From Apostichopus japonicus (lineage: Eukaryota > Echinodermata > Holothuroidea > Aspidochirotida > Stichopodidae), in the NCBI RefSeq assembly GCF_037975245.1, contig NC_092567.1:18358876-18422875 (forward strand): 64,000 nt of DNA. Reading direction: 5' to 3'. Under the pieces are notes generated by a model. The model saw nothing but the letters and a program-made list of their open reading frames with translations, made no database searches and was not told the DNA's origin. A program made the position numbers and the translations under genes. Below are positions 18,377-62,000 of the stretch, piece after piece. Numbering within the stretch: the first letter of the stretch is position 1; every line of letters begins with the position of its first letter.

Positions 18377-21300
18377 TTAACCTTGATCACCGTTGGTCGT
18401 TATGGACGGTATGGTTTCGGCTTGAGCCTGGGCGAGTAGCGCCGTGCCTTGACTTACGGCTGCGCTGTTTAGTAAAGGCTGGTGGTGGTATAAAGTGAGT
18501 ACTTGAGTTGATCCAGCCTGCGAGGATAAAAATAAAAATCTGCATTGCAATTTTTTTTTCCACTTAATCCTCTTTTGACACCTCAACCAATTTCCAGCGA
18601 AAGAGGCAGGGAGAGGGGGAGGCTGGGTCTTTGGTGCTTGTCTAAATTAACTTTAATTGTCAGCGAAAGATATTACAACATGAGGAAGCTTTTATGTATA
18701 TCTTTGATTTATATATATATATATATATTTATATATAAATATATGCAATGGAGGTAAACGACAAAGGCAAATGAATATATATAAATGAAAATCATAATGA
18801 GTTGGAAAATCAAGAACAGTGAAAAAACTTTCAGCCTCCACCGGGATTCGAACCACGGGCCTCCCGCTCTGTACGCGGACACCCTAACCACTAGGCTATG
18901 GACGCTGATTGTATGTCCAGAGGTTCGAAACCGGTAAGGAAGATCGTAATTCCACTGTAGGCGTTTGTCACCTGTATCGAACAATACTAGTTCTGTTTTT
19001 GGTGACATATTTTGCCTTACTCTAGAGATCAAACATGATGCTAACCAACTCGAAAATCTGTGTTCAAAGTATCTCTTTCGAGATCCGGCTTTAGGAATCA
19101 CAATTGATTTTCGAGTTGGTTAGCATCATGTTTGATCTCTAGAGTAAGGCAAAATATGTCACCAAAAACAGAACTAGTATTGTTCGATACAGGTGACAAA
19201 CGCCTACAGTGGAATTACGATCTTCCTTACCGGTTTCGAACCTCTGGACATACAATCAGCGTCCATAGCCTAGTGGTTAGGGTGTCCGCGTACAGAGCGT
19301 TCGAATCCCGGTGGAGGCTTAAAGTTTTTTCACTGTTCTTTATATATAAATATATATATATATATAATGAAATTTGCATCTCTATGATAAAAGCTACTGT
19401 GCAGGTTTTACCTATTGACACGCAAAATTTACAGTAATATTCTGAAGCGGCCAACTCCTGCGGTCTGGATATGCCAATAACGGGATTTTATTCGGTGGCA
19501 GACAATCGAACACTTATCATGCAGATGGAATTATTCCTCACTGTTATTTGAAAACGTCCATCTGGAATACCTTGTTCCTAACTTGAGATATGGTTGATCG
19601 AATGTAACCAGCTAGTCTAATTAGATGAAACCCTCCCAAACTCCAGGCAGTGGATCACAGCGGGTGGTCTGTGATGTCATTATGGCAGATGTTCTTCGAA
19701 AGCTTTACTTTCCAATCCATGCAATCTTCCCTATTAATAATCATTATTGAAATGTGACACATTTGGGAATGTCTTCTTAGCTGTCCATGTTCTCTGTATT
19801 TAGAAATTTCTTAAAACTATTTTCTTTGTCAATAAATGATCTCAAAATTATCCAGAAAAACAGAGAGGCGATTCAAGATCAATTGTCACGAGGACATCTG
19901 GCTTTGCTGCTGCCAATAGCATTAAATGCATTGAAGACTCGCCCCAAACCGTGTGCGGCCATCTGAAAAAGTTAACTCTCCGTTGCTTGCAAGTGAAGCT
20001 TTGTTCGTGTCGCTACAAAATGCAGACAGTACAGTAATGAAACGTGATACCTTGTTATCTTTAGCTGGACCTGAGATGTCCATCGCTGTATTGTTTGTAC
20101 ACTGTGCTGTGGGTATTGACCTCAGCTGTATGTACTGACTGTACACTAGTGTCTAATTACCGATGGTAGCAAGCTGTGTGTGTGTGTATTTTCTGGGGTT
20201 GATGGTGGTGTCTAACACTTCTGTTACACCTCATTCGAAACTAAGTCAGATTACCGGCATTAGACGTTTATTTTTGCGCGAGTCTTCACACCCTTTAAAA
20301 AAAACATCACAAAAGTAGACGTTAGACCATACCTGCGAATGAGACGGATCGTCCATCTCCCGTTGTGAACCCTGGTTAAAGCGCCCTCCATCACCACGAA
20401 TACGATTCATAGCGTGGTTGTGTCTAGATTCATGAAGATATTTCTGTGAAATGATTTCCAAAAAATTGAATGGGATACTGTTTGTCAAGGCAATACAAAT
20501 AAGATTCTTAGCATGGTTGTCTAGATTCATGAAGATATTTCTGTGAAATGGTTTAAGAAATATTTGAATGGGATAATATTTGCCATGGCAATATGAATAC
20601 AATTCATCGTGGTTGTGTCTAGATTCATGAAGATATTTCTGTGAAATGATTTAAGAAAAATTTGATAGAAAACGATTTGCCGAGGCAATTAAAGTGGTCT
20701 CTTTCTTTCATGAAGCATCTACCTTAACATTATTTCTTCCTTAACGATACCAATTTGCATTGAAATAGCTTTAGGAACTATATCACAATTAGAGCAATGT
20801 ACACATTCATTTGAAAGGTCGACCCTCATTGATAAAATAGTCCGAAATGGGCCCACTGAGGCGACATTTTTAGGTAAGTGTTCAGTCATTAGTTTTGGTG
20901 CTTAGCTATGAAAGAGTATGAAATAAATTAATGATACTCCAAAGATCAGGAGGATCAAAAGTGATGTAAGGCATCTTAGAAATTCAACAGAAACAGAAAT
21001 ATTCTGTAGCGAGGGCTGGCAGATGGGGGTTGTGGAATCTGTGATGTAAAGGCGTCTTAGAGATTCCCTCAGTGAAATAGAAAGATTCTGGAGCGAGGGC
21101 TAAAAAATGGGGGTGGGGAATCCTTTGCAAAAACTTCCAACTCTTCTAGCTAAAAATCTTAACCTGTGTGCGTACACTTTCTAAAAGTACCTCGCATAGC
21201 CAACTTAATTGTGACATTGTTTCTCTCTGGGAGACGAAAGTACTGCCTAAAGGCAGTAAACGGCAACACAACTTGGAATTTCATTACCTACAGTTCGGGC

Positions 21301-24300
21301 ATTTTGACGATGATTATCCCAGATTTCTGGGGCTACGAAAGTCGCTGAGCTCTCGACTTACCCTTCTCTCTTTTGGTATTCTGCCCTCAGCCTCTAAGCG
21401 TGCTCTCGCTTGTCTTCTCTTCAGTATCCTGTGGTATTGTTTAGCATTGACGTAGAGCGGCTCCTCTTCCAGCAATTCTGCGGCACCGGCTAACGGAATC
21501 TTTTGCATCGTATGTACACCACCTGCTCCGGGTACCATCTGAATTTACAAATGGACGGGGAAAGAATGAAAATGAAGAAAATTTTAGACTGCTGAACTAT
21601 CTATAGTATGAAATGATCTATGATTTCAACTGAAGGAGGACGGAAGTCAGTGGATATCGCTGACATGCAAGATGGGGGGGGGGGGGGGTTGGCTTGTTCA
21701 TGATTTATCAGGATATCGCTTGTAGGGTCACCAATAGTTAATATGATATATTGGTACAGAAAATATCACATCGCAACTAACCTAATGGATATACACATCA
21801 TTATGCTGTAAACAATAAGGACATCATGAAGGGAGTAGGGGGGGTGGAACAGGGGTGATGGTATGGTTAGCCATCATAGGCGTAGGAGGCTGGGGGGGGC
21901 TGCAGCCCCCCAACCCAAAATTTTTGTGAAAATTTGGGCAATATCATGAGACCTTTTTGGGCACCTACTGAAAGAAAAATAATTTGCAATGTGTTTCCAA
22001 TGGTTAAACTGATATTATCATTATCATTATTATTGTAACAACTTCCCCAATAATTATAACTGATATGGAAGGGTAATGAGACGGCAAATGATTGGCATTG
22101 TTATTGGCATCCGATGTAATAACCGATGCATACCTATATGATATGCACATTAACAAACATTTTCCGCGCGAAAAATTGTGGTTGTATTTTTCGGGCAAGT
22201 CGTTACAGCCCCCCAAATCAAACTGGGCTCCTACTCCTATGTTAGCCATTATATAATAACTTCCACAGTGGGGTTTAAGGGGAATACAATACTCTTCTTA
22301 GCCAACACCGATATATGAATATTCAAGACTACACTGACTGTAGCAGCCAGTTGGGAGAGTTTCCTAATGCTGATACCTCTCTAAACTGTCCTCCCATGAC
22401 ATGCTCTCAAAGCACTGGCATTGACAGTACAAACAGTTCCTGACCTTCATCTGATAGAAACATGATATTGATACTGCTGGCACCGACAATACGAGTGCTC
22501 TGAAGCGGGACATGACCAGAGATGTGCTCACACTGGGCGGCAAGCTGCGCCCAGCAGTTCTGAATGCCGCCCAGCACAAACAGTATTTTAAACATTTCCA
22601 CCCAGCACTTTTTTGATGATAATTTAACAAATTTTACCATTTAACCAAAATCTGGGAGAATACATGGCACAAGAGAAGGAAAAATAGCACCACCTAAGCA
22701 TACTTCATGTGCAAAATTTGTCAAGTGGGTAGAGGGTACCCCACCCATGTGATCCCTCTCCCAGGGTGTGGATCACACTACCGCAAAATCTGCCCGGCAC
22801 TCAAATATTCCTGAGCACATCCCTGCATGACAGTACAGTATCGAATAACCAAGTTGTCCCAACTGGGTGAGAGTAGAGAAACTCAACAGTTCTAAGTGTT
22901 TGGTAAAGTGAATGTACTAGTTCATTATCTTTATATAACAGAACAAAATTAGACATTTGACTTTGGAAATTGTCCCATTACCATGATGACGGTCCCTGGA
23001 TCACTGTTTGGCATGGTGAGAATCTGAGAAGCACTGGAATTATCTATGAATAAATATAACACAATAAAAGATTAAAGTAATTGAGATTAACCACAGCTGT
23101 GTGTGACAGTTATATAACACAGCATAGCATAGGGGACAAACATATCACAAACTTGCCAACATTTTATTCTATCTCAGACAAAGTGACACTTGGGCTTTTA
23201 AAGGCTTAATATAAATCCGACAGTTTCATAATTTGTGGAATTAAAACTTCAATTGTCAACCATCATTTATAGGTTGCATTGTTATGATAATTTTATGAAC
23301 AATTTCACTACCGAAATTTGCATTCATTTTTTTGGGGGCAATTTAGAGGAAAATCACAAACTGGTGAGAACAATATCTAGTACTTACTTTGTGATAGTTG
23401 TGTCTGTGGGAGGCTAACCGTGCCTTCATTGTTACTGTTTACTGGCTGAATAAAGATGGTCTGACCGTCTGCTGTTATGAGCTGTTGTAACTGTAACGAA
23501 TAACGAAGACAATGTTACAGCACATGAATATGCATGAAGACTGAAATGAAAGGGACGAAGATAATTTCACATGTTGAACATATGTTTGTTTCACACAGCT
23601 TATTGAATTGCAAATTTCTGATATTTGCTTTCAGGTTTTCATGGAATATTGTCATGGAAGACTTTGTCAATACTTAACAGGTTACAAGGCAAATTTATTT
23701 CAGTCCCATAGAAGACAAAACCCCATCTTAAGATCTTCTTCCTTCATCTCTGTGCTTATTGTAAGAAACAAAATCTTCCTTTTTATTTGCGAGATCGGGT
23801 GGGCTGGAAGAAAGGGGTAGACTACTACCGAGGTGGGGAGGTGGATAACATTCAAAATTTAACTGTTAATTTTATCTCTGTCTTCTATCAGATAGAAGAT
23901 TCTGTAGTTGATCAATTTTGAATCTTGTGAATAGACATTACATGGATACAATTCAAACATAACACATGTATACTGACCAAACTGAGCTCCAACAATTTAC
24001 AGCATATTCCCTAGCAACCTGTACATACCGGTAACTGGTTACTCTGTTGTCCCTGCAGGATAATTTGTTGTACTTGATTTTGATTGCTCTGTGTCGTAAG
24101 TGTGTCATTTTGTGACTGGAGCTGCTGTGGTTGAACCACTTGAATGGTCTGCTTGAATGGATGAAACAAAGGAGAAACATGAACATATCATGATGTCACA
24201 GTTGCCACTACTACATTATCCAATGACAGGTACGCAGTACGATTGTCAAAGTAGATCTCGTTGTGATCTCAATCCGTGGCATCGCCAAGAAGGGGAGGGA

Positions 24301-25962
24301 GGGGAGGAAGCATGAAGGAACGGGGGAAGAACGCACCCCCGGAAATATCCGGCACCCCTTTGCACTACCCACTCACCCTCCAATGCTGCACCCCATCCCG
24401 CTTCCAAATATATGGCAATACTGATGTCCTCACCATGATGAATGTAATGATGAAGAAGCTACCTAACTTGAAGTGACTCCTGAAAATATAGTTGATTATG
24501 TATGCCAGATTACGGCTGCACCTTATGGATGTCCTCAGGAGATGTCTTAGATATGGATCACGGCAGTGCCCCAGGAAGGACTGTTTGAATTGTGCACAAC
24601 TGGGTGAGTGTGTATGACAAGTTACTAATTACCAGGGTTTATGTTGTTAAGTCATTTGAGAATGCCTTGGTCTTCATACAACGATGTAATCATCTAAAAA
24701 TAACTTTATAACATTTATATAGTAATGATTTAAATTAACAAATTGTTTTATATTTCGTCAGCTAAATGTCGTTCATTGTACCTGTAGCTGCTGATTACTT
24801 GATCCGCTGGGCATCTGCAGCTGGATCTGCCCTGATTGGTTCCCTGCCACCTGAACTGTGATTGGTTGAGAGCCTGATATGATCTGACCTCCACTGACCT
24901 GGACTACCTGATAAAAGTACAAAATTTACAATAATATCAATCGTTCTATTCCATTTTCTCTTATTAATGATATAAGAGTGCGGTGGTTCAGTGGGTACAA
25001 CAGTGCTACAGTGTACACATCTTTACATTTGTACAGAAATTCAACCCATCTTGCATAGTACAGTAGTTTACTTTTGCTACCTATTCCCTGCATAGCCAAT
25101 CTGTGAAACATAGCATTAACAAGAAGGAAACAGATACATCTACTGTATGTATAAAGAGTGAAATGAAAGGAAACCAGGGGGAACGCTTCAAATCCTAGCT
25201 GAGTTAAGCCTCACAATGTATGTACAGTATGTATTTTAGATCCTCCTGCAAGCAGGAACTCGCGAAGAAGCCACCATTGGCTTATCAAAGCCGCAAACTG
25301 ACCAAAGTCAATCTCTTAGAGTCATATTTAACGTCCATGATTATGAATTGTCAACAACTCTGTAACTGGACGAAATACATTAATCTTGGAGTGACTTGAA
25401 CTGGGCACCTTATGATTGGAAGGCACCGGCGTTAACCACTGAGCTAACACTCCTAGCTCCACACATGCATTCTATTAATCACACAATCATCATGATGTAA
25501 TAATTTTGCAACAATTTTGGCCCATTCAAAGAGACTTGGTGAGTAATAAACTTAAGATGCAAATCACAAGGCTGTGTTCATTGTTTTGGTAAATTAAAAA
25601 TTATTAATTGAGGACATCATAATATATATAGTAATACAGAAACAAAGATGTGCATTGAAAACTTATACTGCAGCTGGACTCATGAGTCACAGATTTGACT
25701 GCCAGTGAAGAACTAATGACTGGAGGTTATTTGTTCAATGTGTCTGTGAATCGTCATTCGAGAGAGGGAGGGAGCCAGACATTATGTAAGGTGGTGAGAT
25801 AGGAAAGTGCCGGCGAGAGATTAGGAACCTTACCTGGTTTTGTCCCTGTGCCAACTGAATCTGCTGGAGCCCCGTCGTTTGGCTTTGCGAGTTCTGTATA
25901 CCCTGAATAGCTGATAACTGGTCGGAACTCAGTGCTAGCGACACACCAGAGTTGGACTCCAT
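18377..25962 (-). CDS. NFYA: Nuclear transcription factor Y subunit alpha (8 coding exons, about 323 aa)
   Basis: NF-YA is the sequence-specific subunit of the trimeric CCAAT-box factor. Exons, in transcript order: 25962-25834, 24907-24782, 24151-24029, 23490-23388, 23043-22982, 21538-21362, 20443-20333 and 18517-18377; phases agree throughout. Residues 1-181 are Gln-rich with hydrophobic residues (activation domain: e.g. QQIQLAQGQNQ, VVQVSGGQIISGSQ). Exon 6 carries MVPGAG and subdomain A1 (EEPLYVNAKQYHRILKRR, about 206-225), which binds NF-YB/NF-YC, and ends at KERR. Exon 7 begins with A2, the CCAAT contact segment (KYLHESRHNHAMNRIRGDGG). The 5' UTR acceptor (CTTGTAG) lies 8 bp upstream of the start codon. 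The last exon (46 aa, AGSTQVLTLYHHQPLLNS at its start) is the least certain: it has a good acceptor and correct phase but does not resemble the vertebrate C-terminus. Human NF-YA is 347 aa. Confidence 0.92.
18709..18745. repeat. (TA)n microsatellite
   Basis: An alternating TA tract just left of the large inverted repeat; a similar tract at 19341-19367 borders its right arm. It lies in the last intron of NF-YA. Confidence 0.85.
18812..19340. repeat. Large inverted repeat (arms 247 and 235 bp, 47-bp spacer)
   Basis: The left arm 18812-19058 and right arm 19106-19340 are almost perfect reverse complements; the main difference is 12 bp missing from the right arm near 19301. Each arm contains a tRNA-like segment with A-box TAGCCTAGTGG and B-box TTCGAATCC. 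It lies in the last NF-YA intron, so the pre-mRNA could fold into a long hairpin. TA microsatellites flank both ends. Confidence 0.9.
18830..18910 (-). mobile_element. tRNA-like sequence (SINE head) in the inverted repeat
   Basis: On the minus strand the segment reads as a tRNA-like module: A-box TAGCCTAGTGGTTAGG and B-box GGTTCGAATCC at the right spacing, with a partly paired acceptor (AGCGTCC / GGAGGCT) and anticodon stem (CCGC/GCGG). The T-stem has mismatches, so it is probably a tRNA-derived SINE head, not a working tRNA gene. The second arm (19259-19320) has lost 12 bp before the B-box. Confidence 0.5.
19926..20294. mobile_element. TTAA-flanked MITE, copy 1
   Basis: Flanked by TTAA at 19922-19925 and 20295-20298. 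The ends are related inverted repeats containing TTGAAGACTCG on the left and GAGTCTTCACACCCT on the right. Internal marks are ACCTGAGATGTCCATCGCTG and a short GT run. Four copies occur in the window. TTAA duplication is typical of piggyBac and Kolobok elements. This copy ends 38 bp downstream of NF-YA exon 7. Confidence 0.85.
20333..20443 (-). other. NFYA: NF-YA exon 7: CCAAT-contact subdomain A2
   Basis: The exon encodes 37 residues starting KYLHESRHNHAMNRIRGDGG and RF. The His and Arg residues of this segment contact the CCAAT box in known NF-Y structures. It follows a CACAG acceptor in phase 0 and ends at SHSQ before a GTATGG donor. The first 45 or so bases and the acceptor are present twice more upstream (see 20395-20690). 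Confidence 0.9.
20395..20690 (-). repeat. Triplicated acceptor and 5' part of the NF-YA A2 exon
   Basis: A unit of about 100 bp occurs three times. Each copy has the intron end TTTCACAG followed by codons for KYLHESR. Exon-start positions are 20443 (joined to the complete exon), 20540 (2-bp deletion after AGACA, quick stop) and 20638. The outermost start is 195 bp (65 codons) from the real one, in the same frame, and the path between them is open. Confidence 0.9.
21674..21688. repeat. Homopolymer tract of 15 G
   Basis: A G-run in the NF-YA intron between exons 6 and 5. Confidence 0.9.
21875..22241. mobile_element. TIR element of 367 bp with 8-bp target duplication (hAT-like MITE)
   Basis: The ends are CATAGGCGTAGGAG and CTCCTACTCCTATG, inverted with one mismatch, and the perfect direct repeat TTAGCCAT flanks them at 21867-21874 and 22242-22249. 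A G-rich then C-rich segment (GGGGGGGCTGCAGCCCCCC) lies just inside the left end. No coding capacity. It sits in an NF-YA intron. Confidence 0.8.
22349..22866. mobile_element. CCAGTTGGGA family element, copy 2, carrying a nested insertion
   Basis: Same ends and body as 13188-13392 but expanded to about 518 bp because the 309-bp element at 22517-22825 inserted into it. It lies in the NF-YA intron between exons 5 and 6. Confidence 0.75.
22517..22825. mobile_element. CAGGGATGTGCTCA family element, copy 2, with 6-bp target duplication
   Basis: The ends CAGAGATGTGCTCA / TGAGCACATCCCTG are flanked by CATGAC at 22511-22516 and 22826-22831. The uninterrupted host element at about 13360 has the site once (CATGAA). 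The body matches copy 1 at 6576-6875 over most of its length. Confidence 0.88.
25217..25453 (-). mobile_element. tRNA-derived SINE, CATA-tailed family, copy 2 (full head)
   Basis: Read on the minus strand it starts GGAGTGTTAGCTCAGTGG (A-box), continues to GTTCAAGTCACTCC (B-box; the ends GGAGTG and CACTCC pair as an acceptor stem), then the family body and a degenerate CATA tail. This copy shows best that the family derives from a tRNA. It lies in the first coding-side intron of NF-YA. Confidence 0.8.
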
Positions 25963-26899: not shown

Positions 26900-26996
26900 G
26901 TATATACAGTGCACAACTTTTCCTGATGCAAATGCTGGTTATGTGATTCACCCTTCATGCAAAAAGGTAGCATGCACATGGTATATATTTCCTTAA

Positions 26997-27366
26997 AGGT
27001 ATTGAAGACTCACACCAAAGTACCGCATGTGGCCATCTGAAAAAGTTACTTTCCCATTGCTTGCAAGTGGCGTTTTGTTGGTGTTGCTACAAAATGCAGA
27101 CAGTACAGTAATGAAACGTGATACCTTGTTATCTTTAGCTGGACCTGAGATGTCCATCGCTGTATTATTTGTACAGCTGTGCTGTGGGTATTGACCCCAG
27201 AGCTATGTACTGACTGTACACTAGTGTCTAATTGCCGATGGTAGCAACCTGTGTGTGTGTGTTTCTGGGATCGATAGTGGTGTCTAACACTTCTGTTACA
27301 CCTCATTCGAAACTAGGTCAGATTACCAGCATTAGACGTTTCTTTTTGCGTGAGTCTTCACACCCT
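26997..27366. mobile_element. TTAA-flanked MITE, copy 2
   Basis: Flanked by TTAA at 26993-26996 and 27367-27370, with ends AGGTATTGAAGACTC and GAGTCTTCACACCCT. The body is very similar to copy 1 and in the same orientation. Confidence 0.85.
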
Positions 27367-31800: not shown

Positions 31801-34800
31801 GCTGTTTGCGAATAGAAAACTAAGTCACTGGAATTTTTCTGCAAGAGGACATTATAAGAACAGCATGATTACAGGCGTTTACTAATCTTAAGTCCATTCA
31901 TTGGCATGATTTCCATACCTAATGTAAGCCCTGTATTGCTACTTATTATTGTAAATATTCTCAGGCTGCTCCCATAAGACTGTACAGTAACTTACGTGTG
32001 CTGTAATCAAGGAAAATGCCAGTGAGTGAGCCAATCGGTAATAATTCCTAACATGCGAAAGCTATGAAATTCTAGGCCTATACAACATATATATGATGAT
32101 GGATTCTTATGACTATCCTAAGTATTACCAACTGAATAAACCATTCTTACACAATTTTTTTAACAATTACTTTTGCTTATGAAACTTATTGATCTACTTT
32201 CAATTATGTCTTTGATTACAGGTAACGGTGAGTGTTTTCTCTGCGGAAATAACAACAAAGGACAGCTCGGTATGATTCTGGATGAGAGCCTCTGCCTTAA
32301 ACAGCTCTCTCTACCCACCACTGTTATGAAAGTGTCCTGTGGGTGGGAACACACCCTGGCTTTAACAAACAATGGGGATGTTTTTGCCTGGGGTTCAAAC
32401 AGTCATGGACAAGCTGGCCTTGAGGTAGACTCCAGTAGCCCAGTGAAAGTTGAAGGATTTAACGGTCACCCTGTGAGGGATGTTGCTGCTGGTATACGAC
32501 ACAGTCTAGCTGTCACTGATGACGGCAACGTCTGGACCTGGGGTTGCGGAAAGAGAGGTCAGCTGGGATGGCTGGAAAATTTGCAGAGCGGACAGAGGTG
32601 GTCTCATAAGCCGAGGACTGGTGAGTATTTGCTTTCATTTCTAAATTCATGCCATGAACTTGTCCATTAGCTTTAGGTTGCATCCGAAAACCAGCTGTTT
32701 TACTGAATGTCAGGTTTTTTCCAGTTTTCCAATTGGTTAACTGAGTGATCAGTTAACTGAGTGATCAGTCCCATCTTTTCGCACTATAGTTGAGCTGCCT
32801 ATTCGTCTATTATGCTACTCTTCACACAGCTAGTAGCCAAATCACTATCAGATCAAGGCAGACATGGCAAGTTGTGAACAAATCAACTCTTCCAAACTAA
32901 CCAGTCTATTTGCAGAAGAGGTAAAGTTTCAGTAGTTGAGGTCAAGACAGCTGAAATATGCAACCCATGGTTAATGGACTAATTCTTGTCATGGTAATCA
33001 TTTTTCTCTTTAAAAGATAAGTGTTCACAGTTGGTCCAACAGATATCAACTCTGTAAATAACTAAGAATAGCTTTTACCACTTCATGTATTTCTGGATCA
33101 AAATTATATGTTAAACAACTGATCTTGAATTTTACACCATAATTGTAGAAACTTCATATCATAAATATTTTCATCACATTGATCAACAAAGATCCTTTAG
33201 TCTGCATGTAGACATTGCTCTCTGTAACATGACAGTCTTAACACAATATACAGTGACTTCAAAATGTTTGCAAATTGCAATACATAAGATAGCAACATAG
33301 GCTTTGCAACGTGCTCACAATGTGAAACTGGGTACCACAACCACTTTAATAGAAAAAAATGTGGTTGTCTACACTATAAATCAGCTTGTAATCAAAATCT
33401 TTAAATTTTCTTACAGTTTCTGAAGAAATGAAGTGCAGATCTGTAGCAGCTGGAGCTTATCACAGTTTAGCGATTACTGGTAAGTACTGGAGTCAACAGA
33501 AACCAGAGCTAGTAATGAGACAGTCGGTATTATTCCACTTTGATCTTGCATGCACCATCGAGTTTGCCGGTTCACGTACTGATCCCACATCATGCTACAG
33601 TCTTTGTTCAAAGTTCCAGTTCACCTTGTGTAACAAATGTATGTGGCCAGTCACAGGGGGTAATATCTGTCGCTATACGTCAGAGTTTATAAGAAGCAGA
33701 ATAATTCGACCAACAAGCAAGATTTTATTGAAAACAAATTGAACCAACACACGCAAGACACACCATTTAAACAAATTACGCACAATACACATCCCAGGCA
33801 ACACGCACTAACGAGGCACGCATAAAATAATAACAATATTGTTACATTTTAGTCAATCAAGAACAAAGCTGTCCCTTTTTCTAAAACTGAATAGTAATCT
33901 TACTAATTAAAAATTCAAATCAAAATAAAGTCAATCACAACATTGTTACATTTTAATCTGTCAAGAACAAAGCTGTGCCTTTGTTTTAAACTGAATAGTA
34001 ATCTAACTAATTAACAATAATTCAAATCAAACCTAAGTCTATCACAGCATCGTTACATTTTAATCCATCATGAAGAAAGCTGTGAACAATAATTCAAATG
34101 AAAATTAACTTAATCATAACATCTTTACGTTACACCTTGGTGGTAACCAAGGAGATCAGGAGGTCAACGAAAACATGCAGTCTCAGATTGTATATTAAAA
34201 TATGCACATAATTCGTTCAGAGTATTAATATATATGTATTTATACAGCACTTTATATTAGAGAATATCGCAGAGCAATTTACATGGACTATAGTGAAATC
34301 TTAAGAAGTAAAATGTAAGATACATACTGAGTAATAAAAGGAATAGATGAAGTCAAGCAAGATTAGAAAATAATCATTCAATCAATCAATAAATTACTGA
34401 AACTAATTAAAAGAAGGTTAAGATAAAAACAAGATCAGTCTTTAAAGTACATGATATGGAAACAGTGGATTAAAAGTGCCGTTTGCCCAACGGTTAATCT
34501 TGCTGGTGCTCAAGATTTACCATATGGAATGCTGCTTAAAGCCCCCACTTTGTCAAACAGCTCCTTCAGAAACATAAAGAAAAATAGTCCATAAGCTGTG
34601 GTTTAATAATTGGTAGCACCCAATTTTTCAGAATATTGACCATTGAAGCCATCGTATTGCTTCCACTCAAGAAACTTGTTGAGAAATAATTTTCTCTATC
34701 ATGTTCAAATCAAGCTGTGATCTGAATGTCAACAGACTGATAAATTCATAAATCAAAGCTATATAATATTTGGTGAGGTTTCTGAGATAGTTCTGGCACT

Positions 34801-47000: not shown

Positions 47001-50000
47001 AGCTAAAAGTAAAGAATGCTTTTCCATCCAGGAACAATTCTCTGTTTTCTCTTAAGATATAGCCAATTTCAAAAAAATTCTAATGACAGAAGAGTTTTCC
47101 TTTATCATGTTAAATGTTTAAAGGGTGTGAACTCGTGCAAAAAGAAACTTCTAATGCCAGTAATCTGACCTAGTTTCGAATGAGGTGTAACAGAGGTGTT
47201 AAACACCACCATCGATCCCAGAAAATACGCACACAGCTTGCTACCTTCGGTATTTAGACACTAGTGTACAGTCAGTACATACAGCTGCGGTCACACCCAA
47301 CAGCACAGTGTATTAACGATACAGCGATGGACATCTCAGGTCCAGCTGAAGATAACAAAGTATCACGTTTCATTACTGTCTGCATTTTGTTGCGACAAGC
47401 AGAAAACTGCACTTTCAAGCAACGGAAAGTTAACAAGTTTTCATAGCGAGGCACGCGGTTTTGGGGCGAGTCTTCAATGCCTTTTAACCTATTCCTCTTC
47501 TTCCAGTTGTTCTGGAGTCATCGCTGTGGTGGTTCTTGGCCTCATCGTTAATTCTGAAAAGACAGCCATCAGTCCAGAGGTAGAGGTCTTCTTACACCGG
47601 TAAGTTCGTCTGTGAAGTAGGCCTACTCTTTATTGTCTAGATACCCTTGGAAGCAATTCATGTGTGGAAATGTAGCCATCCATTACTTGACAATATTCAC
47701 TTTCTGCCACATGGGATCAGTGAAAATTTATCGCTATATGTTGGACCAGCCATAGATATTTCTGCATATCCAATTAGCAGATGAGGCAATTGCCTAGGGA
47801 GCACCCAAGGTCAAGGGCCTTCCTGGAACCATTCCATGCAAGACATATGACATGATATGAAAAGTTGCCGAAGATGTTTAAGGTTATTAACTTCCGACCG
47901 TAGAGCTAACACAAATTTGTTTTTTTTATTGATATCTGAATTTTTCTTTCAATGGATTTCATCTTAGGTTCTGGGAGATGCTGGCCTATCTTGCAAACAC
48001 TCTCATCTTCATGCTAGTTGGAGTTCTCATCGTTGACAAGGCGCTGGCCAATGTGGACGCCATCGATTGGTTTTATGTCATAGCTCTCTATGTGGGAATC
48101 AACACCATCAGGTCGGTCATGTAGAGGTTGCGTTACTTATTCAGTTTAAATCATGAATCTGGCTAATTTGAATCAACTTCAAGACTACACATTTGCATGG
48201 GGTTTTGCATTGAAGGGGCTTGGGGTGGGGGGTGGGGGAGCTCTCCTGATGAAAGAGGAGTGTATAATTTTAAAATCACTCATCACAGACCACAGTGCTG
48301 GCAGTAGTGGTTGTAGTTACACTGCAGTGGGAAGGTTATGTTCTCAAGTATGACATGATATGCATCAACCACTTGGGTTCAAGGAAGATGGCTATTCACT
48401 CTGGACCATAGTAGTAGTAAGTTGAGTCTCGTCTATCCGACATGCTCAGTGATTAACCTCCGCCACGTACCACGATCTTGCGCAAGGTGTATTGCTTCCT
48501 CGAAATTGTTAATGTTAACGTCGTTAAATTGCGACTTTATTTTTCCAAGCAAGGTAGTCACAGGCCTTCCTACTGGTTTAGTAGTATGTCTCAATGCTTC
48601 TCTTAAAGCAACCTTTGCTCCACTCTGGACCATGTACATTATATTATCATGTAACACAGCTTTAATTCTTCCCAATACAGATTCTTTGTCATAGCAATGT
48701 TCAGTCCAATTCTGAGAAAGCTCGGCTACGGTCTATCCTGGAGAAATGCAGTCGTCCTGACATGGGGTGGCCTGAGAGGAGCTGTGGGACTGGCCATGGC
48801 CCTGATCGTCGTGCAGACCAAAGAGATCAACTTTGCAACCATCGGCAGTAAGGTGCTCTTCCACACCAGCGGCATTGTGGTGCTAACCCTCTTGGTGAAT
48901 GCTACTACCATCAAAAGCCTCCTTTCCATCCTAGGTAAGAATTTCATCTCAAGAAAGGGACCGACCATGACCGATGACCACAAGCACGTAAAAGAAAATA
49001 CAGTTTAAAGTTATTAAGAACTAGAATATTACATCTTGCAATATTGCTTCTGAATTCCTTACTATCGCAATCAATAAGGAATACAGGAACAATATTTAGT
49101 TAGGAACCAGTTGTCGTTGTTAGAGAGGGGATTATACCAGTTACCAGGTGAATGCACCATTTTTGAGTCCAGAAGGGGTTCTCTCTAGCCCCAATACGAG
49201 ACAAAGAACTCATCTTTTTAATGGGTGGAGTCTTCTGTTGAAATTATGATTGGAATTGTATCAACGTCTAACTGACTCTTTTGATTTTGTGGAGTAAACC
49301 CGAGAACCTTTGTGTAAAGGTGACAACCCAGAAGTTTTGGAAAGGAAATGTTAAATATCTATTTCCAAGAATCTACTATATGGGGAAAAGGGTGTAAATT
49401 TAACAGTAGATATAGATTTTAGTATTATTATGATAGATAGAATTTAAAATGAAATCTAAGCATCTTTGCAGTGAACTTTGCATTTAATTCCTATAAATAG
49501 AACTTCGAGACACTCTATGTTCCTCGTCATTTGTCAGAAATAAAGTTTCTCCTGGACTTCCCTTTTAAGAAGCTTTTACGAGTGAAAACAAAATGCCAGG
49601 TAGCTTATCGATTGTTAAAAAAGTCAGGCGTTCTTCTTGAAAGCTTTATCCAACATTACAGTAGCTGTAAATTTTCCCTGCCTCATTTTATTCATACATA
49701 AAACGTGACAATAGAAAGTCCTTTTCCTTAATGAGTCTACCCCCCCCCCTCCCCCCGACTCCAGTTGTACTTCTATATGAAGAACAAAAAATCAAAAACA
49801 TTCTGACAAAGTAGCAACCACTTCCTACCCAGACAATAGAAACCGCTCTGTCTCCAAAATCCTCAATACTTAGAAATTCCTCCCCTTTAGAAATCCCTAA
49901 TTGGCTCTTTAGTTCTGACCTTGGGTATGTTTATGGCTTCTTTACAATGTGATTACGTAAGACTTCACTTACCATCAACTCCTTGACTGAACAATAGACA

Positions 50001-53000: not shown

Positions 53001-56000
53001 ATATATAGCTTCGGTATAAGTATATTTTTTTTTATTAAGAGTCCACTTTTACAATCTGCTGCTTTTCATCCTCTTCCTCAAGAAATACAAGCTGAAGGAG
53101 ATGGTGAAAGAGACCGACCCAGACGACCTCCCGGAACCCTCGGGCCTCCGCTTCTTGAAGTTGATGCACAGGGTAGCGAATCACGTGATCCTCGAGATCG
53201 TCATGTTTGCTATCATCATCCTGAATCTCGTTCCGATCATCATGGGATTCGTCTACTACGAGGGACACGAAAAATACGACCAATACGAGCCCTTCATCCG
53301 CATGTCCAACTTTGGATTCACCGTCGCTTACTTCTTAGAAGCCGTCATTAAGGTGAAAAGAATAAAAGGAATGGGTTTCCAAACGAGAGAGAAATTTGCT
53401 AACGAATACATGGCCCATTTTTCATTCAGTTTTTTTATGGACATCTCACTATTCATATCTCAAACTAAGCCAATCAATTTACATTAAGACTACATGTAGA
53501 TATAAATATTCATAGCTCTTTAATTATTCATAGCCGTACGTTGTTCCGTTCTCAGATCCTCGGTCTAGGGAAGCACTACTTCTTTGATCGCTGGTGTCAG
53601 TTTGACCTGATCATCCTGGTCCTATCGGTCATTGACATCATCCTAGATGAGACGGTACATAGCATCGCTTTCTCTCCATCCATCCTCAGGATCACCAGAT
53701 TGGTCTTCAGGGTCCTCCGAGGTCTCAGAATGTTACGTCTTGTCAAGGTATATATTTTTGGTTTCCCATTTGTAGATCATGTTTGTAAAATTCTTCATTT
53801 TTATTGTTTAACATTCCTTTCTTTCTTTTACAACCATATTGACAATTCATAATCATGGACGTTAAATATGAATCTAAGAGACTGACTTCGGTCAGCTAGC
53901 GGCTTTGATGAGCCAATGATGGCTTCTTCGCGAGTTCCAGCTTGCAGGAGGATCTAAAATACATACATACATACATATGTATGTCCATAATATTTTATTT
54001 TTACATAACTTAGGGTTTTTTCTTTAAGACTCATTCCTTTATCGACCAAATATACAGGTAACACCAGAATGTGACATTTTTTAAGGCAATGTCTAATATT
54101 TTTAACCACTGAAATATTTTTCTACCTCCCTATAGGTCATCATCCCGAAACTGATCCAGCTAGTGAATGGACTAATCAACAAGAAGCTGAGTCTCGGATA
54201 CGACGTTGGTAAGGGGTTCATCATCGGTGCCGAGGAAGTCGGCAAGCTATTGGACAGTATGACCGACAACGCCAACATCAGGAGCGAACTGAAGAAGCAG
54301 ATAGACTTACTCAGACTGGAAGTGGTCAGGGAACTTGGTAAGAAAGCCTTTCTTAATAGCGTTACCCCCGGGTCCCATGGGTTAGTGCTGCTACTGGGGT
54401 GGTTGTCTTAAGGGCTGCAGAAAGGAGACCAAGAACATATGAGAGGAACAGCTCAATTGGCAGATATAGCAAGCGCCTGTGAACGTACGTTCCTACATAG
54501 GCACGCATGTACACATTTAGTGTGCGTTAAGGTGCTTGTAATTCGATAAATTTGTTGTTTAGTACTATACCATTTTTAGTATAGTATCAATTTTTGCTCA
54601 TATGAAGACGTAATTCATCTTTGGTAGGAATCGCAAGAACTGATTTTATTATTCAAAATTTTGTGGAGCAGTTTTGAATGCCCGGGATTCTGTCTCTTTA
54701 TAAATTCTTACGGTTCCTGTGTGCAAGAAACTGCTATACATCTCTGCACTTGTATATTTTTAATTTGGTCCATTTTTGTATAGCATTTTGCATTTGCGGA
54801 TAAATTATGCTCCGAACTGGTCTAAAGCTGATCATGATTGTTTCAGCTGTGAGAATTAGAAAGTTCATTCCGCAAAAGTGTCCATTACCTCTAGGTTGCA
54901 TCCAAAAACCTGCTGTTTGGTCTGAACGGCAGGTTTTTTTCCAGTTGGTTAGCTTAGTGATCAGTACCATCTTTTTGCACCTTAGTTGAGCTCTGTTATG
55001 CAACTCATCACACAGCTAGTAGCCAAATCACTATCAGATCAAGGTAGACATGGCAAGGTGTGAACAAATCAACTCTTCCAAACTCATCAATCTTAATTAG
55101 TCTGTTTGCAGGAGAGATAAAGTTTAAGTAACTTGAGGTCGAGAGCTGAAAAATGCAACCTATGGTTAATGGACTAATTCTCGTCATGCAGGGTTTTTTT
55201 TTTCTGATCTTTCATTTTGGATGTTAACATTATACTTTGGTTAACTATACAGCTGATAGGATGTGTCTTTTGAATAGGTGTGTGTGACCTCCTCATATCC
55301 AGTATGTGAGATATGGTCAAGATTGTAACCAGACACTTCATTCTGAAGGATGAGTTGAGATCTTACCAGTAATATTCTGACTTTGCAGCATATCATTGCC
55401 CAACTTTTGACACAAAGCGTTAACTCTGTGACGTAGCCCTACCCTTACCCAGAGAGCCCTTCTACCCATCAATTATTGGTTCATATGATGACATCATCAT
55501 ATGACGTCGTCATTAAGTTTGTCATTAAGGCTTGAAATTGATTGCACTACAGGTATGCTGCAGAGAGAACACCCTGGTATTGCAGTATCAGTGAAGACCA
55601 GGCAATCCATTCGCAGTGTACTGAACCATTCTCGTGATACCATCAGGGAGCTCCAAGGAGCTGGACTACTGGATGAGATGGAGGCCCACAAACTTGAAAA
55701 GGTAAACATATTGGGTGGGGTATCCATCCTGTAGGGAGAGTGAGGGGGTATCCATCCTGTAGGGAGAGTGAGGGGGTATCCATCCTGTAGGGAGAGTGAG
55801 GGGGTATCCATCCTGTAGGGAGAGTGAGGGAGGTATCCATTCTGTAGGGAGAGTGAGGGGGTATCCATCCTGTAGGGAGAGTGAGGGGGTATCCATCCTG
55901 TAGGGAGAGTGAGGGGGGGTATCCATCCTGTAGGGAGAGTGAGGGGGTATCCATCATGTAGGGAGAGTGAGGGGGGTATCCATCCTGTAAGGAGAGTGAG

Positions 56001-59000
56001 GGGGGTATCAATCCTGTAGGGAGAGTGAGGGGGGTATCCATCCTGTAGGGAGAGTGAGGGGGGGTATCCATCCTGTAGGGAGAGTGAGGGGGTATCCATC
56101 CTGTAGGGAGAGTGAGGGGGGTATCCATCCTGTAGGGAGAGTGAGGGGGGTATCCATCCTGTAGGGAGAGTGAGGGGGTATCCATCCTGTAGGGAGAGTG
56201 AGGGGGGTATCCATCCTGTAGGGAGAGTGAGGGGGGTATCCATCCTGTAGGGAGAGTGAGGGGGGTATCCATCCTGTAAGGAGAGTGAGGGGGGTATCAA
56301 TCCTGTAGGGAGAGTGAGGGGGGTATCCATCCTGTAGGGAGAGTGAGGGGGGGTATCCATCCTGTAGGGAGAGTGAGGGGGTATCCATCCTGTAGGGAGA
56401 GTGAGGGGGGGTATCCATCCTGTAGGGAGAGTGAGGGGGTATCCATCCTGTAGGGAGAGTGAGGGGGGTATGTAGGGAGGGGGAGGCCAATTGGCTAAGG
56501 CGTCGGACTCGTGATCCAAGGATTCCTGGTTCGGTTCCTGCCTAGTTCATTACGTTGTGGCTTTGGGCAAGATGCTTTACCTCACTTGCCTCTCTCCACC
56601 CAGGGGTTAAATTCTACCTGTGAGTTAACTTGTCATTGGGTGCAGTATATAACTGCTGCCGACTGGAGGGATTGTCTCTGGGACAGGTTATCATTGACCA
56701 GGGGTAATATAACGTCTGTAATGCGCTTTGAGACCTATCGCTAGTATAAATTCGCTTAAGCGCTATATAAAAAGCAAATATTATTATGATTATTGGGGTC
56801 AACAAAAGATTGAGCCATCATGTAGTTGAAGTGACGGATAATCTTCTGCTGTTCATCGACACGAAGAGCTAAAGTCTCGAGTTCCTTTCAGACTATTTAG
56901 CTGTTTTGGTATATCTTTCAAAACTTCCCTTGTCTCCTGTAATAGTTTAGAAACTTTTAAATCTCTCGCACAGATGGTCGAGATTAAAATGAAGCGACTG
57001 CAGAACGCCCCGGCCAGCATCCCTCCACCGAGACCCGAAGAACTTCTCAAGAACGTAGCGTGGCTATCTGGAGACCAAAGACTCATCAACTTCATTAAGG
57101 TGAGATTCTCAATAGAGAGATTCCTGAAGTGACAGTGTACAATGTAAATCTGACTGTGTCCATTTTAAAAGTGGTGTTTGTTTAATATGTCAGTAGATAC
57201 ATAATGCTTCATACTTTGTCGTCACGAATGAAACTTAAAAAAAAATCACCTTTGTTTTTGTTTGTTGGTTTAAGTCAGTAGTCCCACCCTGTGGGTATAA
57301 TTACCCTGGGAGGGGACGGTGAGAGGTGGGCGTAATGAGCCTTTTTTTGGGGGGGGGAGAGAGGGGGGGCAATGACACTGCTAGTAACAGACATAAAACT
57401 GATTGTAGAATCTGAAGGTAGATTCAATGGTTTTCAGGCCGGTTTGTATTTTGTTTATGTGAATTAAGGGATATAATTCAATTGGGAGACTTTAACTGGT
57501 AAATGAAACATTTTAGAAATATATCCGAAGATCCGATGCGCTTCCATGATTCAGGTAGGTTTCTCGTGATGATCAATGTTTGTATAGTTAGCTGAACATA
57601 GTGGGCAACCGGAAGAGAGTGCATCTGTGGAAGCCGTTCCAAGAAGGTTAGGAACCACTGGTTCTATTGATATTATTCTATATTAATTTTCATTCAAAGC
57701 TTCTTCGTCTCAACTGTTCTCTTTCATAAACATTGTTGTCTTCATAATTGGTTATCATGTAATCCAATTACTACTTGAAATGGAACTAATTGATAAATGT
57801 CATATGCAAATTCCAAAACAGTAAATGTTGAGCTCTTCCTATGCCCGAAAATTCTGGTCCCTGGATTCATTGATACGTATTATTCATTTACTGATCATAA
57901 TTATTTACATGTAATTAAATTGTTGTTAATTTAATGGAATATGTTGAGTCCAAACAGAAGTGTGAACATTCTTCCTTATAAATGCATAAATATCTCTTCC
58001 TCTGGAACTGTTTTTAGATGTTTAATTGGGAAGTAGATATTAATTAATTGTAGTTAATTACCAAGAGAAAGGGTTATTTCAAAGCAAATATTGTTAATCT
58101 TTCTTTTTTTTTCTTTAAACGTTTCTTTTCCAGGCCAGAGCAGAGTTATTACACTATGATTATAACGAGATCATCATCCAGGAAGGCGACCAACCTAACG
58201 GTATCTATCTCATCGTATCCGGAATGGTCAGGGTAAGTATCATGCTCATTGTTCTAAGTGACTCTCTTAAAATCTTCGTTCTCACTCGCTCGTTAACTAT
58301 TTTCATGCTAACGACTTAAATATTTCCCTTCTCTTTCGTTGCTACTATATTCATCATAGTGAAGAAACGGTGTAGCGGTTTAGAATTTACCTTCACAATC
58401 ACGAGGGTCCCGGTCTGTAAACCACCCCCAGGGACCAGATTTTCTGGACCTTTTCAAAAATTTCTGCTTTGCGGTGTTGTGTCAAAGTAGAGTCTGCCAT
58501 GAATTTTGGTATTACTTGTTTGAGAATTGGGGTTTTGTCCTGTAGCAAAACAACTTTGTCCACCATATACATAGCTGCACTGCAGGGATATGATGTGAGA
58601 ATATGGTGGTCAGATGACGAAGTACACTCTCGTCCACGGGACGTGGCCTTTAAAGGGTGTGAAGACTCGCACATAAAGAAACGTCCCATGCCGGTAATCT
58701 GACCTAGTTTCAAATGAGGTGTAACAGAAATGTTAGACACCACCATCGATCCAAGAAAATACACACACAGCTTGCTACCTTCGGTAATTAGACACTAGTG
58801 TACAGTCAATACATACAGCTAAGGTCAATACCCACAACACAGTGTATATAGCAGCGTGGACATCTCAGGTCTAGATAAAAGATAACAAGGTATCACGTTT
58901 CATTACTGCCTGCATTTTGTAGCGACACGAAAAAAACGTCATTTGCAAGCAACGGAAAGTTAACTTTTTCAGAGCGCGACACGCGGTTTGGGGCGAGTCT

Positions 59001-62000
59001 TCAATGCCTTTAACTGGCAGTCCTGGGAGCAGTACACCATTTACACACCTTGCCTTGAAATACTCTTAAACACTCATTGAGAAAGATAAGACTTGATAAA
59101 AGTCAATGTCGATCTATGATCCCACATGCTGTCTTGAGATCAAAATGAGAAACTTTTTCTAAACCTATTTTCTCTTTTCTTCATTCCCAGCTGAAGGGAA
59201 CTGGCGAACACCTGGACCACGAGATCAACAGATGCTCCATCTCCACCAACACCGAAGACGTCTTTGAGGATTATCTCTCTGTGGGCAATGTCATTGGGGA
59301 GATGGGAGTCCTGACAGGGCGCCCTCGTAACGCGACAGTCTCTTGTGAAACGACAGTCATGGTAAGAATCCGGCTAAGGTCGCTGTATCATCAAAGATGA
59401 CTGGCGTTAATTTGTTCTGGCATTTTAAACGGATCTAAGTTAATCCTTTTGTAAAACTGATGAGGGTAAACTTTTAATTTATTTCCTTCTTTTGAACAAA
59501 CACAGCCTCATAAAATGATCTTCTGTAATATGGCCTCCTTCCATATAGATTGCTTTGGTGGTTAAGGCAATGGACTTGGGATCTAATGTTTGCAGGTTGA
59601 AGTCCTAACCAGATCATTACGTTGTGTCAGTTAAGTTAGGCAAGGCCCTTTATCTCCATTGCCTCTCCTCACCCAGGTGTATAAATGGGGACTTGTGAGG
59701 TCACTTGTAAATACAGTCCTGTGCACCAGTCTGTGGTTGCACCCTATGGGAATTCCCCCAGGGGACACGTAGATTTGGTGCACCGTGGTACCTACCCTAA
59801 TGTCATATTTTGGCATTGCTGCACAAGATTCATCCACAATTAAGTTAGTTAAAGATTGCCCCGAAATTGTCAATATTTCCCAATGGCTTAAAAATTATCA
59901 GAGTGACTCTCCAGGAGTATGTGACCTTCCAAATAGTTCCCACAGGATTGCTACAGTTTTGTTAGTGCTGTTAAATGCTGTGACTGAGATTGGCAATAAA
60001 GTGTTTGTTGAAGGTTTCAACGTACGTGACATTTTGTCTTTTTGCAGATTTAATTTCCCCAGAATGTTTTTGGTCAGTTCTTGTATATTTTTATTAATAT
60101 TGTTTGTATCTTTGATCATTTTCATTGTATGTTTAATTCATACCAGGTCTACTACATCAACCTGGACGACATGCAGATTGCACTTGATACCTTCACACTG
60201 GAACCGTCTCTCGAATCCAGGTTGTGGCATGTCGTCGCCATCAGGGTGGCGACTCCTCTGCTGTTGCAACAGATATCATACCAGGTAACTCAACCATTAA
60301 TAGAACCATGGATGCTATAAAGTCCAGGTGGGATCTCCTGCCTATGGTTCCATATCATAGGTATAATACATTGGTACCAATATGTATCCAACAGATATCA
60401 TACCAGGTAACTGGATCGTTAATAGAACCATGGTCATGCTATAAAGTCCAGGTGGGATCTCCTGCCTAGGTTCCATATCATAGTACAATACATTGGTACC
60501 AATATGTATCCAACAGATATCATACCAGGTAACCCGATCATTAATAGAACCATGGTCATGCTGTAAGGTCCAGGTGGGATCTCCTGCCTAGGTTCCATAT
60601 CATAGGTACAATACATTGGTACCAATATGTATCCAACAGATATCATACCAGGTAACTCGACCATTAATAGAACCATGGTCATGCTCTAAAGTCCAGGTGG
60701 GATCTCCTGCCTAGGTTCCATATCATAGGTACAATACATTGGTACCAATATGTATCCAACAGATATCATACCAGGTAACTGGATCGTTAATAGAACCATG
60801 GTCATGCTCTAAAGTCCAGGTGGGATCTCCTGCCTAGGTTCCATATCATAGGTACAATACATTGGTACCAATATGTATCCAACAGATATCATACCAGGTA
60901 ACTGGATCGTTAATAGAACCATGGTCATGCTCTAAAGTCCAGGTGGGATCTCCTGCCTAGGTTCCATATCATAGGTACAATACATTGGTACCAATATGTA
61001 TCCAACAGATATCATACCAGGTAACTGGATCGTTAATAGAACCATGGTCATGCTCTAAAGTCCAGGTGGGATCTCCTGCCTAGGTTCCATACCATAGGTA
61101 CAGTACATAGGTACCAACATGTGACGAACAAATATCATACCAGGTAACTTGACCATTAATAGAACCATGGTCATGCTATAAGGTCCAGGTGGGATCTCCT
61201 GCCTAGGTTCCATATCATAGGTATAATACATTGGTACCAATATGTATCCAACAGATATCATACCAGGTAACTGGATCATTAATAGAACCATGGTCATGCT
61301 ATAAAGTCCAGGTGGGATCTCCTGCCTATGGTTCCATATCATAGGTACAATACATTGGTACCAATATGTATCCAACAGATATCATACCAGGTAACCCAAT
61401 CATTAATAGAACCATGGTCATGCTATAAAGTCCAGGTGGGATCTCCTGCCTATGGTTCCATATACATTACATTGGTACCAATATGTATCCATCAGATATC
61501 ATACCAGGTAACCCAATCATTAATAGAACCATGGTCATGCTATAAAGTCCAGGTGGGATCTCCTGCCTATGGTTCCATATCATAGGTACAATACATTGGT
61601 ACCAATATGTATCCAATATACCAGGTAACCCACTCATACATAGAACCATGATCATTCCAACTATTTGAGTTTTATTTTTCCATCTCGTTAGGGTTGGACT
61701 CAAGAGAAAGTGAAGCTCCACCTGGAGAAGGGATATCTACCAAGCCTCTCTGGGAAGGACAAGAGCTTTGATATCGATTATACCATGGAAGATGTGATAC
61801 TCATCCAGGTGAGGTGATGATAGTTTGGAAGATAGTGATGATATTATTTAGCTATGATACTGATCCATCTTTATCAATGATACTGTAAATTTGGGATATT
61901 GATGATAGCATGCAAGGTTTTTTGATTGATTTATTGTGGTTATTTGATAATATACTGTAGAGGAATATTGAAGAAGACAGCATTAAGGTTGTGATACTTC

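Follow-up and report, generated by a model that had tools for sequence, protein, structure and literature searches.

Threefold tandem array of an acceptor and exon start at the A2 exon of NF-YA in Apostichopus japonicus

The NF-YA gene of Apostichopus japonicus was found to carry the end of intron 6 and the start of exon 7, the exon encoding the A2 helix, in three head-to-tail copies. Three acceptors, here called A (outermost), B (middle) and C (innermost), precede a single complete A2 exon, and an identical core spans the splice border in all of them. We regard it as probable that a three-copy duplication of approximately 98 bp has left competing acceptors at this site, C being the normal one and A and B finding low to moderate use. 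The window analysed is a stretch of 64,000 nucleotides of contig NC_092567.1 (assembly GCF_037975245.1), and all positions refer to it.

The NF-YA gene

The gene is intact. It lies on the minus strand with eight coding exons, running from 25962 to 18377, which are joined through GT/AG borders into an uninterrupted frame of 322 codons (322 aa). The slash in donor sequences marks the exon border.

18377..25962, minus strand: NF-YA whole coding region, joined frame of 322 codons
25962-25834, 24907-24782, 24148-24029, 23490-23388 and 23043-22982, minus strand: coding exons 1-5, from reading frame and GT/AG signals only
21538-21362, minus strand: coding exon 6, A1 helix and start of the A1-A2 linker, from translation, splice signals, PF02045 and PDB 4awl
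20443-20333, minus strand: coding exon 7, identical to copy C, encoding the A2 helix KYLHESRHNHAMNRIRGDGGRF and the residues after it, donor CAG/gtatgg, from PF02045 and the intact 322-aa frame
18517-18377, minus strand: coding exon 8, from reading frame and GT/AG signals only

Exon 6 ends in ...IPKERR at the donor AGG/gtaagt, and exon 7, 111 nt long, starts with KYLHESR. The A1 helix is the part of NF-YA that binds NF-YB/NF-YC. The profile PF02045 (CBF-B/HAP2) matched exon 6 over model positions 1-34 (E 3.4e-11) and exon 7 over model positions 33-56. A search with the same profile of the 671.6-Mb genome in 35 contigs gave matches in exons 6 and 7 only (2/4 candidates scored); the gene is the only one that PF02045 finds in the genome, and a second NF-YA gene or pseudogene was rejected on this ground. 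Relatives were also sought in viral contigs, and none was confirmed there.

Among the human, Aspergillus and Arabidopsis chains, the joined exons 6 and 7 matched human NF-YA (4awl) best (E 6.2e-30). The other structure matches were Aspergillus HapB (4g91) and Arabidopsis NF-YA6 (6r2v), and the fourth and last, 6qmp, is a 31-residue piece. A preliminary description of this DNA had stated that the spacing between A1 and A2 is conserved in NF-Y, and this was borne out by the three solved chains that span both helices: the canonical splice of exon 6 to exon 7 leaves no gap relative to 4awl and 6r2v and a difference of one residue relative to 4g91. The gene belongs to the NF-YA family by its A1 and A2 helices, which match PF02045 at the conserved spacing when canonically spliced, by the KERR/KYLHESR joint and by the GxGGRF motif. 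It departs from the family in having two additional acceptors upstream of its A2 exon, each followed by a partial copy of A2.

The array at the intron 6/exon 7 border

The three acceptors that had been described before one complete A2 exon are present in the sequence, with first exon bases at 20638 (A), 20540 (B) and 20443 (C). A string of 33 nt, CATTTCACAG followed across the splice border by AAATATCTTCATGAATCTAGACA, is identical in all three places on the minus strand. Each unit consists of approximately 50 bases of the end of intron 6, the acceptor CATTTCACAG and approximately 45 bases of the start of exon 7. Copy C alone runs on into the full A2 exon, and the GGRF codons and the exon donor occur after this copy only.

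20396..20689, minus strand: tandem array of three units, spaced 97 and 98 apart, extending to 20665 by TRF and to 20689 by repeat search
20639..20691, minus strand: intron part of unit A, including the acceptor ...tttttcttaaatcatttcacag, from the alignment of the units
20541..20638, minus strand: copy A, outermost, beginning of the exon only (KYLHESRHNH...), continuing to the acceptor of B, 98 nt, in frame with C over 65 codons
20444..20540, minus strand: copy B, middle, beginning of the exon only, continuing to the acceptor of C, 97 nt, out of frame
20694..20772, minus strand: possible fourth unit, decayed, in register directly upstream, keeping CTTCATGAA and ACCAC, from local alignment

TRF reported a single array at 20396-20665 with a period of 98, 2.7 copies and 81% matches, so that in this one assembly the units have the head-to-tail order of a minisatellite. 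The repetition is far too clear to be due to chance. When up to 8 mismatches were allowed, the 33-nt core occurred at the three array sites only, both in the window and in 20 more genome stretches of 10 kb each; within these sequences there is thus no sign of a dispersed repeat that carries the acceptor.

The alignment of 20694-20772 to unit A scored 45.5, a value reached by 11 of 2000 shuffles. Unit C aligned to the same place (158/2000 shuffles), the best alignment of unit B fell elsewhere within the upstream stretch (50/2000 shuffles), and the stretch of intron 6 from 20910 scored 39.5, against the 45.5 of the putative fourth unit. The case for a fourth, decayed unit is marginal. If real, it would be an example of a unit whose core was not kept.

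Tandem arrays elsewhere in the genome

Arrays with a period of 60-150 were counted in 264 kb, made up of the window and the 20 stretches of 10 kb. In total 16 were found, occupying 2.6% of the bases, and two adjoining arrays in one sampled stretch may in fact be a single array. Five are in the 64-kb window, seven in 80 kb beside the window on the same contig and four in 120 kb on two other contigs; the neighbourhood of the window may be richer in arrays than the rest of the genome. As arrays of such size are common here, the origin of the one at exon 7 is ordinary, and its overlap with an exon border is no great surprise.

A second tandem duplication is located in the same intron 6 of NF-YA, at 20961-21122, with a period of 84 and 2 copies. 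Larger arrays in the window are those at 60267-61616 (123 bp x 11.0) and 55717-56471 (29 bp x 26.2), both by TRF.

Conservation of the acceptor core

In the three-way alignment of the units, 73 of 104 columns were invariant. The longest invariant run covers 30 columns, which lie over the acceptor and about 20 bases at the start of the exon (-10..+20), and becomes 33 columns with another gap placement. By permutation of columns, a run of 30 was reached in 23 of 200000 cases, and with the 33-column gap placement the observed run was reached in 0 of 20000 and 0 of 10000; the locus was chosen before this test, and the figures take no account of that choice. Pairwise, the longest identical runs were 30 for A and B (212/50000 permutations, in a comparison that omits the constrained true exon), 45 for A and C (1/50000) and 30 for B and C (453/50000).

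The distribution of substitutions follows the same pattern. Odd-one-out substitutions were absent from the 30 core columns, while the 44 intron columns held 7 for A, 4 for B and 5 for C in addition to two gap columns; for the 25 exon columns beyond +20 the counts were 1, 3 and 0, respectively, with four gap columns besides. The acceptor-capable part of A and B has been kept, whereas the remainder of the units has not. If A or B is used, the diverged remainder of each unit would serve as a yardstick for neutral change.

When the same permutation test was applied to the 15 other arrays, the strongest result was 360 of 10000. The array at 60267-61616 gave 347/20000 when cut into 10 units and 704/10000 with 11. 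These control arrays are few and mixed, with two to eleven copies and differing divergence, and 8 of the 20 sampled stretches adjoin the window; they form a rough null, because several have two copies only and their divergence differs. The decoy cores are preserved beyond this expectation, which keeps a functional reading alive. Such a core would be expected from selection on splicing and equally from copying of short tracts between units.

Splice signals and predicted products

Pyrimidines occupy 12 of the 17 positions from -20 to -4 in A, 12 of 17 in B and 10 of 17 in C, and 11-14 in the six other acceptors of the gene. Matches to yTnAy, the branch-point motif, were found at -42 and -57 for C and only at -51 and -54 for A and B, a placement that may be weaker for the latter two and thus favour C. 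Elements deeper in exon 7 could also favour C, because neither A nor B has the remainder of the exon behind its own border. More than one consensus acceptor precedes one exon, which by its sequence signals is the arrangement of an alternative 3′ splice site, and these signals are compatible with the use of A and B.

The outermost copy had been described as lying in frame, and the interval from A to C (20638-20444) indeed measures 195 nt. Read in frame 0 it is open over all of its 65 codons; 3 and 5 stops occur in the two remaining frames. Splicing to A is predicted to give an NF-YA of 387 aa with an insert of 65 residues at the A1-A2 joint. The middle copy, given as out of frame, runs into a stop after ten codons (KYLHESRQPC). 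Splicing to B is predicted to give 249 aa, with the stop 178 nt upstream of the last junction. An early stop well upstream of the last junction leads to decay of the transcript, and the B transcript is a candidate substrate of nonsense-mediated decay. Of the isoform with the 65-residue insert that the preliminary description put forward, the gene, exon, acceptors, frames and product all stand as predicted; the isoform itself is retained as a candidate, with putative poor binding to CCAAT and a putative regulatory role.

A 101-residue protein that holds the A-to-C insert and exon 7 (P0001) matched PF02045 in one stretch only (E <=0.001), at the innermost A2 copy (residues 64-87). Its AlphaFold2 model, made without an alignment, had a mean pLDDT of 53.6 and a pTM of 0.37, too low to be informative on the structure.

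The open frame between A and C is only mildly unusual, at 1.5-9% in controls before phase is considered. It arose in 153 of 10000 cases when all 195 nt were shuffled and in 932 of 10000 when the repeated cores were kept fixed. Among overlapping stretches of 195 nt in the seven introns of the gene, with exons and array excluded, 250 of 5011 were open, and in intron 6 upstream of the array the count was 1 of 476. The correct phase of A relative to C is a further 1-in-3 chance. By shuffles and intron controls the open frame is too weak to be taken as a sign of coding, and it was rejected as such.

Relation to described isoforms and duplications

According to PMC3061855, NF-Y reportedly regulates 30% of mammalian promoters. 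Like the candidate forms predicted here, the NF-YA isoforms of PMC11802806 and PMC6896337 diversify the protein through splicing. Some isoforms are distinguished by exon 3, in the activation domain (PMC11802806), and NF-YAx, in which exons B, D and part of F are skipped, still enters CCAAT-binding complexes (PMC6896337). All of these changes lie in other parts of the protein, whereas here the joint that reads DNA would change. Among the open-access papers listed, judged by titles and abstract starts, none reports an NF-YA isoform changed at the A1-A2 joint, which is weak evidence that such isoforms are undescribed. In plants and fungi a linker proline helps to place A2 and has been lost in mammals, according to PMC6652802.

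The closest counterpart to the expected behaviour of the A and B proteins is YAm29, a laboratory A2 mutant of NF-YA. It is dominant negative, joining NF-YB/NF-YC without binding CCAAT, as described in PMC2312324; the A and B proteins are likewise predicted to be trimer partners without CCAAT binding. The mutation in YAm29 was engineered, whereas the form considered here is a natural candidate isoform predicted from the sequence.

Tandem duplication within a gene is also the basis of tandem duplicated exon substitution events, which give alternative coding sequence from whole exons (PMC9741552, as far as its accessible text goes). The array shares with such mutually exclusive exons the route from intragenic tandem duplication to alternative coding sequence, but only the exon start and its acceptor are copied, and inclusion would extend the exon, not swap it. 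Mutually exclusive exons were rejected as an explanation, as there is no complete second exon and A and B enter the intron part of the next unit before reaching an exon end. Among the matches listed for duplicated acceptors, none was on NF-YA by title. Partial duplication of an exon as the source of an acceptor is a variation on established routes by which splicing evolves.

Origin and possible use of the upstream acceptors

The history that we favour may be depicted as follows. A segment of approximately 98 bp, containing the last ~50 bases of intron 6 and the first ~45 bases of exon 7, was tandemly duplicated to three copies, as the array itself shows. The innermost copy alone reaches the complete A2 exon, and homology shows that splicing to 20443 therefore yields the normal NF-YA. 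Since A and B share positions -10..+20 with C and have pyrimidine tracts no poorer, competition with the true acceptor is to be expected; C should be the main site because NF-Y, to judge from the solved structures, needs the conserved joint. A and B would then find low to moderate use. Use of A would place the 65 residues at the A1-A2 joint of a 387-aa protein, and use of B would give an early-stop transcript, probably subject to degradation, or else a protein that retains A1 and lacks A2. By analogy with YAm29, the A and B proteins may be expected to join NF-YB/NF-YC and not to read CCAAT. The decoy cores could have stayed identical through selection on splicing or through transfer of short tracts between copies, while the flanks diverged. 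If A or B is used, the gene would hold a built-in route, made by simple tandem duplication, that turns part of NF-YA into a probably non-binding form, and it would be a clear natural case in which duplication of an exon border, and not of a whole exon, founded an alternative splice site.

Two other histories were considered. A and B might be poorly or never recognised, their core identity being due to short-tract conversion or template switching, a possibility that we consider doubtful. The abundance of tandem arrays in this genome agrees with it, as does the identical run of 45 columns in the non-neighbours A and C, which a transfer tract might give. However, the conserved stretch falls on the acceptor and the opening bases of the exon and not on an arbitrary part of the unit, and 0/15 other arrays have an equally strong island. 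Still less probable, and in our view unlikely, is a duplicated acceptor cassette selected at the DNA-reading joint, in which C gives the active form, A an in-frame natural dominant negative with 65 additional residues and B a poison splice. Equally unlikely is the purpose that it would serve, that of an alternative 3′ splice site cassette maintained to set the level of CCAAT-binding NF-YA. The unchanged decoy cores between diverged flanks, the open and in-frame path from A to C and the pyrimidine tracts of the decoys, at least as rich as that of C, speak for such a cassette. Against it, an open frame by itself turns up in 1.5-9% of control sequences, and the isoforms of PMC11802806 and PMC6896337 change parts of NF-YA other than the A1-A2 joint. 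If true, it would constitute a type of NF-Y isoform that acts on CCAAT binding itself.

Short tandem repeats are in general prone to mis-assembly, and the array might be a false expansion of one exon start. This is highly improbable: the copy pairs differ in 20-22 of 104 columns (gaps counted) and carry separate indels, which makes a false duplication of one locus unlikely. Duplication followed by competition between the acceptors is retained as the preferred reading.

Other features in the window

A dispersed repeat of approximately 330 bp is located just downstream of the A2 exon, at 19915-20250. It has four copies in the window, the others being at 26993-27322, 47164-47493 and 58698-59013, and matches of 83-94% identity were detected in 6 of the 20 sampled 10-kb stretches, one of them only 113 bp long. 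On the plus strand, an open frame at 32164-32670 contains RCC1 repeats (PF00415, E 4.1e-28) and probably belongs to an RCC1-domain gene.
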